NCBI GenBank assembly: GCA_002700465.1
Contig: PADT01000061.1
Location: forward strand, 1-32,399
DNA: 32,399 nt
Source of the DNA: Flavobacteriaceae bacterium
GTDB lineage: Bacteria; Bacteroidota; Bacteroidia; Flavobacteriales; Flavobacteriaceae
Direction: 5' to 3'
Shown here: positions 31,099 through 32,399 of the stretch, one piece after another
Layout: every line of letters starts with the position of its first letter
How positions within the stretch are numbered: position 1 is the stretch's first letter
Translations under genes and position numbers: made by a program
The notes under the pieces: model-generated
The model's database searches: none
Seen by the model: the letters and a program-made list of their open reading frames with translations, nothing else
Told to the model about the DNA's origin: nothing

Positions 31099-31910
31099 TT
31101 CATCTGATTTTTATAGATTCCTAATAATTTTAAAGATTCGGCCTTATCATTAATTAACTCAAATGCTTTATTAAAATCATTAATGTTGCTAAAAGTAGTA
31201 TCAATAAAAAACGAATATTTCCATGGAATTTCAACAATTGGTAAAGATTGAATTTTAGTAAGATTTAAATTATAATTTTTTAATATACTTAAAACAGAAG
31301 CTAGACTACCAGTTTCGTGACTTAGTGAGAATTTTAGTGATGCTTTATCATTTTCATTTTTAGAAAGATCTTTGGAAATAATCACAAATCTAGTTTCATT
31401 ATTTTTTATAGTTTGAATATTACTAAAAATAATATCTAAACCATAGATGTGAGCAGCTTCAACACTTGCTATGGCTGCTGTATTTTTAATCTCGTTTTTA
31501 AAAATTATTTTTGCAACATCAGCAGTATCTTTTTCTTCAACCAAGGTAATATTTGGATATCTCTTAAGAAATTTTTTACATTGTAAAAGTGCCATTGGAT
31601 GTGATGAAACAAATTTTAAATCTTCAATTTTTACTCCTGGATAAACCATTAATTGGTGATTTATATTTATAAAATATTCACCTACTATATTTAAATTTAG
31701 GTTATCAATTAAAGCATAGTTTGGTATGATTGAACCAGCTATAGAATTTTCAATTGCCATAATACCAAAATCTGAATCTCCACACGCAACTGAATCGGCT
31801 AATTCATCGAAAGATAAAAATTCATTAACCTCGATTGAATCACCAAAATATTCTTTAGCTACTTGATCATGATAAGATCCTTTTATACCTTGAATTCCAA
31901 TTTTTTTCAT
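31095..31910 (-). CDS. pheA: Prephenate dehydratase
   Basis: Converts prephenate to phenylpyruvate, the phenylalanine branch. The two-lobed catalytic part (about 1-180) shows GIQGIKGSYHDQVA, FGIMAIENSIAGSI, SHPMALLQC and the catalytic NNETRF (TRF at 173-175). An ACT domain follows (about 190-268) with GSLASVL at 201-207. The family's Phe-binding ESRP motif is QSLP here (221-224), so feedback inhibition may differ. 271 residues, no chorismate mutase domain; that activity is on the DAHP synthase. First gene of the aromatic operon, preceded at 10 bases by the attenuator terminator. Confidence 0.96.
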   Translation of the reverse strand: MKKIGIQGIKGSYHDQVAKEYFGDSIEVNEFLSFDELADSVACGDSDFGIMAIENSIAGSIIPNYALIDNLNLNIVGEYFININHQLMVYPGVKIEDLKFVSSHPMALLQCKKFLKRYPNITLVEEKDTADVAKIIFKNEIKNTAAIASVEAAHIYGLDIIFSNIQTIKNNETRFVIISKDLSKNENDKASLKFSLSHETGSLASVLSILKNYNLNLTKIQSLPIVEIPWKYSFFIDTTFSNINDFNKAFELINDKAESLKLLGIYKNQMK

Positions 31911-31919
31911 TATTACTTT

Positions 31920-31950
31920 AAAAAAAAAGTCCCGATTAAATCAGGACTTT
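31920..31950 (-). terminator. Attenuator terminator in front of pheA
   Basis: On the minus strand AAAGTCC (31950-31944) pairs with GGACTTT (31932-31926). A U-G pair and GA/TC extend the stem to about 10 pairs around a TTTAA loop. Nine T follow directly (31928-31920, three of them shared with the stem). This is a standard rho-independent terminator, but it ends 10 bases before the pheA ATG, so it can only act as a conditional stop for the operon. Confidence 0.9.
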
Positions 31951-31995
31951 ATAAAATATATTTTAAAAATTATTAAATATACAAAGACCTGATTC
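31938..31995 (-). promoter_or_regulatory. Antiterminator alternative fold of the pheA leader
   Basis: AATCAGGTCTTT (31994-31983, within codons 19-23 of the leader ORF) is complementary to AAAGTCCTGATT (31950-31939), the 5' arm of the terminator, at 11 of 12 positions with one T-T mismatch. Weaker pairs extend the helix to 31995-31980 with 31953-31938. The loop of about 26 bases is A/T only. The two folds exclude each other. A ribosome stalled on the Phe/Tyr codons leaves this arm free (operon on), and one that reaches the stop codon covers it (operon off). Confidence 0.85.
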
Positions 31996-32050
31996 TTACT
32001 TCATAATAGAAGAAAAAATAAAATTTTTGATAAAAATAATTGCGTTTCAT
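31973..32050 (-). CDS. Phe/Tyr-rich leader peptide of the aromatic operon
   Basis: A 25-codon ORF, ATG at 32050-32048 and TAA at 31975-31973, too short for routine gene calling. Residues 4-16 read NYFYQKFYFFFYY; 10 of residues 5-16 are Phe or Tyr. The whole peptide has five Phe (TTT and TTC) and six Tyr (all TAT), no Trp. This fits a sensor of charged tRNA-Phe and tRNA-Tyr, the two end products of the pheA-tyrA operon. It begins 13 bases after a -7 box and ends 22 bases before the terminator. The peptide itself probably has no function after synthesis. AT-rich DNA favours Phe and Tyr codons, but the match to position, operon content and alternative RNA folds makes chance unlikely. Confidence 0.88.
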   Translation of the reverse strand: MKRNYFYQKFYFFFYYEVRIRSLYI

Positions 32051-32063
32051 AAATATTTGAGAG

Positions 32064-32094
32064 TAAATGTAGTATTAGTTATTGAAAAAACAAA
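32064..32094 (-). promoter_or_regulatory. Promoter of the aromatic operon leader
   Basis: Minus-strand TTTG at 32094-32091 and TACATTTA at 32071-32064 are 19 bases apart, matching the Bacteroidota TTTG-N19-21-TAnnTTTG pattern with a single mismatch. Transcription should begin near 32058, leaving only about 8 bases before the leader ATG. Confidence 0.7.
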
Positions 32095-32126
32095 AATCAA
32101 TTTAAAAAACTAGTAAATTTTATTTT

Positions 32127-32399
32127 TTAATTTCTCAACATAGAAACGTGTTTTTTAATAAATACATGAGATAATAATTGTTTCATTTGGTCAAACTCAA
32201 TTAAAAAAGCATCATGACCATGAACAGATTTAATTGTTTTAAAAAAAATATTTTCTTTAATCCTGCAAGCCTTGTAAAATGTTTCGCGATTTTGATAATC
32301 AGTAAAAAACAGGTCTGAATCTACAGAAACTATAAAAATATTTCCTTTTATTTTAGAAATAATATCTTCAAATTTAACTTCTTCATTTCTCGTAATATC
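32127..32399 (-). CDS. metX: Homoserine O-acetyltransferase, C-terminal part (5' end outside the window)
   Basis: Ninety codons open from the window edge to a TAA at 32129-32127. The end matches the MetX alpha/beta hydrolase family: IKGNIFIVSVDSDLFFTDYQ supplies the catalytic Asp strand and VHGHDAFLIEFDQM the catalytic His, the family's GHDAFLIE tail. The enzyme acetylates homoserine for methionine synthesis. Only the last quarter is present, so acetyl versus succinyl specificity cannot be checked. It lies upstream of the aromatic operon on the same strand, 32 bases before that operon's -33 box. Confidence 0.9.
   Translation of the reverse strand, partial: DITRNEEVKFEDIISKIKGNIFIVSVDSDLFFTDYQNRETFYKACRIKENIFFKTIKSVHGHDAFLIEFDQMKQLLSHVFIKKHVSMLRN

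Follow-up and report, generated by a model that had tools for sequence, protein, structure and literature searches.

The 216 bases on the minus strand between the end of an upstream open reading frame (ORF; position 32127) and the start of pheA (position 31910) most probably hold a ribosome-mediated transcription attenuator of an aromatic amino acid operon, a reading to which we assign a probability of about 0.93. The window, i.e. the whole stretch of 32,399 nucleotides that was analysed, comes from a Flavobacteriaceae assembly (GCA_002700465.1) of 1.18 Mb in 75 contigs, which is 66.6% complete. The nearest named relatives of its PheA, among 10 loci found, belong to 'uncultured Flavobacteriaceae' assemblies and to 'Cryomorphaceae bacterium BACL29'. 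Four elements lie before pheA on the minus strand: a promoter, a leader ORF rich in Phe and Tyr (F/Y) codons, an antiterminator arm within that ORF, and a terminator. This observation, made in a preliminary description of the sequence, is correct, and the arrangement is beyond chance. Sequence comparison provided the elements, their conservation, predicted mutually exclusive and covarying folds, and their spacing.

The leader ORF (32050-31973) starts with an ATG at 32050, ends with a stop codon at 31975-31973 and consists of 25 codons plus stop, encoding the peptide MKRNYFYQKFYFFFYYEVRIRSLYI. It was read from the sequence and is kept in relatives. Its regulatory codons are residues 5-16 (32038-32003), 10 of which are Phe or Tyr, exactly as the preliminary description had it. 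That description proposed dinucleotide shuffling as a check, and when the 216-base gap was shuffled in this way 5000 times, 10 F/Y in 12 residues arose once and at least nine arose 10 times, whereas a terminator of the type present in the window never arose. Both the ORF and the terminator are thus beyond chance. A few other short ORFs in the window have 7-8 F/Y in 12 residues, none of them with a terminator within 120 nt; among short window ORFs with at least 7 F/Y in 12, only the pheA leader has one.

The terminator consists of a hairpin (31950-31926) with an 11-pair stem and a 3-nt loop, and of nine T, three of which are within the stem. Its 5' side is arm 3 (31950-31940), followed by arm 4 and the T run (31936-31920; arm 4 at 31936-31926, T run at 31928-31920). 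A terminator scan of positions 31700-32399 returned this single site, versus a mean of 0.1 in shuffled sequences, and RNA folding gave -12.9 kcal/mol (z -4.7). Arm 2, the 5' arm of the antiterminator, corresponds to codons 20-23 of the leader ORF. Its sequence AATCAGGTCTTT (31994-31983) is complementary to AAAGTCCTGATT (31950-31939) at all but one of 12 positions, the exception being a T.T mismatch found in just one of 18 other aligned sequences of the genus, and the extended pairing between arms 2 and 3 (2:3) reaches 31995-31980. The antiterminator folds with -14.9 kcal/mol (z -3.9), and 5000 shuffles gave p = 0.001 for its complementarity. Arm 3 is common to the antiterminator (2:3) and the terminator (3:4), with 10 of its bases paired in both folds. 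Direct reading, folding and the terminator scan therefore bear out the 11/12 complementarity and the nine-T terminator originally reported.

We sought PheA in the genus (20 matches in 22 genomes), the family (130 in 149), the order (115 in 196) and the phylum (172 in 198). Within the family but outside the genus, 71 of 128 matched genomes were examined, and the leader analysis covers part of the order and phylum matches; loci L022-L030, with contigs of identical length, were excluded as copies of genus loci. A leader was scored as present when an F/Y-rich ORF and then a terminator were found upstream of pheA, a definition that 8 of 980 shuffled upstream regions also satisfied. With a stricter definition (at least 7 F/Y in 12 and a terminator score of at least 12), 91 of 98 real leaders passed versus 0 of 980 shuffles. 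The ORF with most F/Y was taken as the leader ORF of each locus, and some start codons may be wrong.

By the ordinary definition, the leader is present in 19 of the 20 pheA loci examined in the genus, the exception (L020) being a sequence cut 104 nt upstream that keeps the terminator. It was likewise found in 94/97 loci examined elsewhere in the family. Five further families of the order had it in 9/10 loci, additional orders of the class in 18/21, and other classes of the phylum in 4/31. Alignment of the pheA upstream regions of relatives, which had been suggested at the outset, showed that ORF and arms are conserved and covary across Bacteroidia. Relatives with the same operon that lack the ORF or the arms had been named beforehand as evidence against an attenuator; the comparison favoured the attenuator. 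The four loci from other classes with a leader (L098, L099, L165 and L172) have PheA proteins of 40-44% identity, which suggests that leader and operon may travel together.

Absence is concentrated in certain groups. In one family of the order (f4) all seven loci lack the F/Y-rich ORF with terminator, and their PheA proteins are mostly distant (six at 32-35% identity, with L150 at 46%). All four loci of family f15 scored by this definition, with genomes of 600 kb and PheA about 50% identical, also lack it. Twenty further f15 loci, for which only F/Y count and hairpin score were determined, show 3-7 F/Y in 12 and include two weak terminator-like hairpins (score 9). These 600-kb genomes hence keep pheA at 24 loci (L158-L161, L277-L296) with no F/Y leader and strong terminator, and it is plausible that the attenuator was lost in reduced genomes that would, by their apparent identity, be endosymbiont-like. 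In a genus of the same class (g216), three loci (L087, L089, L092) with PheA at 48-51% identity have no leader, and three others from the same family (L094, L096, L097) have kept it. By this comparison, the absence in g216 appears to be a lineage-specific loss.

Counted as far as the last F/Y codon, 53% of in-frame codons are F/Y, versus 16% and 21% in the other two frames, an excess that is partly built in because the ORF was chosen for F/Y. Density of F/Y does not correlate with GC content (-0.06), and five loci at 50-60% GC retain 6-10 F/Y in 12. Trp codons occur in 52 of 98 leaders and in none of seven non-redundant leaders of the genus. These figures bear on one alternative, in which a constitutive terminator, or the 3' end of the upstream gene, happens to lie next to an F/Y-rich ORF that arose by chance in T-rich DNA. 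The region is indeed AT-rich and the same strand does carry an ORF ahead of the terminator, yet the F/Y run survives at 50-60% GC, shuffles fail to reproduce ORF plus terminator, and the arm within the ORF covaries with the terminator (see below), making this explanation extremely improbable. A chance ORF in T-rich DNA was rejected on the shuffles, the GC-independent F/Y density and the specificity of the presence definition.

Covariation, the strongest evidence for attenuation, was assessed in a set of 145 leaders. Of these, 144 were used, L174 being omitted because its best ORF is far from the terminator, and 98 remained after similarity reduction. In brief, the stretch from the last F/Y codon to the terminator was matched against the 5' arm of the terminator, and arms were swapped among species in permutations, here and for the first hairpin below, that do not model the tree. 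The native 2:3 score of the 98 leaders was 20.8, versus 15.5 for swapped arms (sd 0.32, maximum 16.9), and was reached in 0 of 10,000 permutations. Dinucleotide shuffles scored 13.3, with 72 of 98 leaders individually at p ≤ 0.05 and 26 missing it. Individual scores fell within the top 5% of all swaps in 31/98 leaders, and in 52/98 when swaps were limited to different terminator cores.

The pairing is retained by arms of quite different sequence. Independent arm 2/arm 3 pairs include GGACTTT/AAAGTCC, GAGGCTTT/AAAGCCTC and GGGATTGT/ACAATCCC, and a further one, AGAGCGGTC/GACCGCT, includes a G-T pair. At the same stem positions G-C-G, A-T-A, C-G-C and T-A-T triples replace each other, arms 2, 3 and 4 changing together. 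The number of arm-3 bases paired in both folds has a median of 8 and is at least 5 in 96 of 98 leaders. The final codons of the peptide change to fit the terminator. That the two folds exclude one another, as had been claimed for the window, is upheld by an arm 3 that serves both and covaries across Bacteroidia.

The preliminary description missed arm 1, and the first hairpin that we add here is supported across relatives. In the window this tentative arm (32024-32009) lies on the F/Y codons and pairs with 32002-31987. Taken alone, the window's 1:2 hairpin (-5.9 kcal/mol, z -1.2) is not significant, 29 of 200 shuffles being as good. Across the 98 leaders, 1:2 complementarity was 16.9, versus 15.3 for swapped arms (sd 0.29; the highest of 5000 permutations was 16.4). 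Arm 1 is at median codons 8-12, on the F/Y run. By shuffling, 18/98 leaders were individually at p ≤ 0.05 and 80/98 missed it. At the stage when the transcript still lacks arm 3, folding predicts arm 2 to be paired upstream with a mean probability above 0.5 in 89/98 leaders, in native sequences with no shuffled control. For the group, these comparisons support a four-arm design, more weakly than they do the 2:3 pairing.

Spacing was assessed with an assumed ribosome footprint extending from 18 nt before to 12 nt after the first base of the A-site codon; PMC4833913 describes a footprint of up to 12 nt downstream. With the assumed footprint, a ribosome at the stop codon masks at least half of arm 2 in 89/98 leaders, and one whose A site holds the last F/Y codon leaves at least half of arm 2 free in 97/98. 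On this geometry, RNA polymerase would make the leader with a ribosome close behind. With ample charged tRNA-Phe and tRNA-Tyr, the ribosome would reach the stop codon and cover arm 2, arms 3 and 4 would form the terminator, and transcription would stop ahead of pheA. Were either tRNA short, the ribosome would stall on the F/Y codons, i.e. on arm 1, leaving arm 2 free to pair with arm 3; no terminator would form, and pheA and the genes for the aminotransferase, TyrA and DAHP synthase/chorismate mutase would be transcribed. If the leader were not translated, arm 2 would be held in the 1:2 hairpin, giving termination by default. What we infer from these arrangements is that charged tRNA-Phe/Tyr is the signal, that the ribosome is coupled to the polymerase and that expression is affected.

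A stalled ribosome could also be brought about by the nascent peptide, as in secM and tnaC, in which case the leader would sense free Phe/Tyr or another ligand and not tRNA charging. The peptides are strongly aromatic and alike within clades, as such sensing might lead one to expect, but they differ widely between clades, which all the same keep the density of F/Y codons and the geometry of the arms. Density that is kept despite peptide divergence is what sensing by codon dosage predicts, and we hold peptide-mediated stalling to be very unlikely.

Terminator/antiterminator pairs occur in T-box elements, riboswitches and protein-controlled leaders alike, so that attenuation could in principle work through one of these with the short ORF incidental. 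Several results speak against this, and we regard it as highly improbable. The Rfam scan gave the window no T-box, riboswitch or other family at gathering score except a distant tRNA gene, and a known Rfam element was accordingly rejected. Across 11 scanned loci (the window's own, pheA of eight relatives, one hisG and one trpE), it gave just Flavo-1, located elsewhere in L037. Moreover, the amino acids of the ORF fit the product of the operon and persist where the peptide otherwise differs, and in the window only about 13 nt lie between promoter box and ORF. The tRNA gene, the window's sole Rfam match at gathering score, is at 638-711 on the minus strand. In L037, two Flavo-1 RNA matches (2704-2781 and 166-91) flank pheA.

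Ribosome-mediated attenuation is the reading retained, and the closest known systems are the enterobacterial pheA, pheST and trp leaders, in which an amino-acid-rich leader peptide, the 1:2, 2:3 and 3:4 folds and a terminator precede the first gene. The leader described here would work in the same way as these, including Rfam Phe_leader RF01859, with four arms and a leader whose codons match the operon. It does not belong to the RF01859 sequence/structure family, its score of 15.5 bits falling short of the cut-off, 55. Unlike enterobacterial leaders, it combines Phe and Tyr codons, with Trp codons added in the 52 leaders mentioned above, a mixture that matches an operon also holding DAHP synthase. 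Its start codon, again unlike theirs, is very near the predicted promoter.

That promoter (32093-32064) consists of a TTG at -33 (32093-32091), a 19-nt spacer and a -7 box, TACATTTA (32071-32064). The box is close to the flavobacterial box TAnnTTTG, placed at -12 to -5 in the accessible text of PMC9723704, and the promoter is kept in the genus alignment. The promoter originally claimed was found as a promoter-like TTG and TACATTTA pair of flavobacterial type. A plain E. coli sigma-70 promoter was rejected, an E. coli-type scan giving 6 sites versus 5.2 in shuffles. The pattern TTG-N17-21-TAnnTTT[GAC] occurs no more than 75 nt from the start of the leader ORF in 35/97 leaders versus 3.2% of shuffles. 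From the box position, the transcript of the window is predicted to start near 32059-32057, some 7-9 nt ahead of the leader start codon. The distance from box to leader start ranges from 4 to 36 nt, with a median of 17 and a value of 13 for the window, and if transcription starts about 5 nt past the box, several leaders would begin a few nt from the RNA 5' end. In the window (32051-32071) and in L013, L031, L052 and L166, the -7 box is 4-13 nt before the start, and the ORF may be nearly leaderless. Such a start would be unusual, because 87% of predicted F. johnsoniae transcripts have leaders of more than 10 nt (PMC6847099, accessible text).

Downstream, on the same strand, lie genes whose Pfam identities match the function suggested by the leader codons. 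They are pheA (prephenate dehydratase; 31910-31095; PF00800, with an ACT domain match under the curated cut-off), a class I/II aminotransferase gene overlapping pheA (31098-29947; PF00155), tyrA (prephenate dehydrogenase; 29950-29090; PF02153, PF20463) and a gene for DAHP synthase fused to chorismate mutase (29100-28018; PF00793 and PF01817). These are followed by rsgA (RsgA-type GTPase; 28014-27073; PF03193), for which a 3-nt gap points to co-transcription, and by three genes probably co-transcribed too: dtd (D-Tyr-tRNA deacylase; 27073-26621; PF02580), a mazG-like pyrophosphohydrolase gene (26616-26290; PF03819) and aroA (EPSP synthase; 26286-25054; PF00275). Neighbours overlap or sit 3-4 nt apart. 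Of the eight-gene operon proposed at the outset, the gene identities held, and a reach of co-transcription as far as aroA is what this tight spacing suggests. As judged by eye from translations, with no search, the order pheA-aminotransferase-tyrA-DAHP synthase/chorismate mutase recurs in a relative from the family (L300), and pheA-DAHP synthase/chorismate mutase-aroA in a locus of the same class (L301).

Amino-acid attenuators have reportedly been surveyed computationally by Vitreschak et al. in 2004, in a paper whose abstract is said to mention Bacteroidetes/Chlorobi, and by Lopatovskaya et al. in 2010. In F. psychrophilum, the accessible text of PMC9723704 reports a structured 5' element upstream of the same gene, pheA, also found in other Flavobacteriaceae genera and with no Rfam match, and notes strong signs of leader-peptide attenuation in front of operons for amino-acid biosynthesis. 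What that text says of the pheA element includes no leader peptide, arms, covariation or wider spread and does not call it an attenuator outright. Compared by description and not by sequence, it is very probably the same element as ours. The hint of novelty in the preliminary description was too strong in view of that report; neither the arms nor their covariation were found described in the literature passages covered. The accessible text of PMC7366714 describes, for Bacteroides thetaiotaomicron, short ORFs that resemble leader peptides and leaves pheA unmentioned. Neither Bacteroid-, Flavobacteri-, pheA nor phenylalanine occurs in that of PMC2965389, and attenuat-, leader peptide and pheA are likewise absent from that of PMC6847099. 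Bacteroid-trp RNA (RF01692) is given as a putative cis-regulatory RNA of Bacteroidetes (PMC2864571), and its name places it at trp genes; neither the window nor any of the 11 loci, including L218, which has a Trp leader, matched it at gathering score. Judged by the sequence features tested, the pheA leader is a well-supported further case of a known mechanism, ribosome-mediated attenuation.

Comparable leaders precede other amino acid genes in the genus. A His-codon leader with terminator was found before hisG in 9 of 13 loci, or 10 counting L209; the nine with at least 3 His in ten residues are L203-L205, L207, L208, L210, L211, L213 and L214. Before trpE, a leader containing WW, with terminator, was found in 17 of 22 loci (L216-L231 and L235, with WW or WWW), the other five comprising four weak, paralogue-like matches and L215. 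In the genome of the window, whose assembly is 66.6% complete, the hisG locus (L202) shows no His leader and trpE gave a weak match only. With fixed cut-offs, 22 ilvD loci yielded no leader rich in branched-chain amino acid or Leu codons, and 18 thrA loci yielded no Thr/Ile or branched-chain leader.

Bacteroidota mRNAs are described as having no Shine-Dalgarno sequences in the accessible text of PMC6847099. The pheA leader provides a testable case of ribosome-mediated attenuation in such a phylum, present in most sampled Bacteroidia loci, and one in which a single leader would be tied to more than one aromatic amino acid. As an RNA element with no Rfam match here, it could be curated from the loci listed. 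Whether a near-leaderless, Shine-Dalgarno-independent Phe/Tyr(/Trp) attenuator is the ancestral aromatic control in Bacteroidia, lost in the 600-kb genomes, seems to us an evenly balanced question. If that ancestral role is real, the persistence of the leader, with the His and Trp leaders of the genus, would mean that Bacteroidota ribosomes stay tightly coupled to RNA polymerase. The leader offers a ready reporter of transcription-translation coupling in Bacteroidota.
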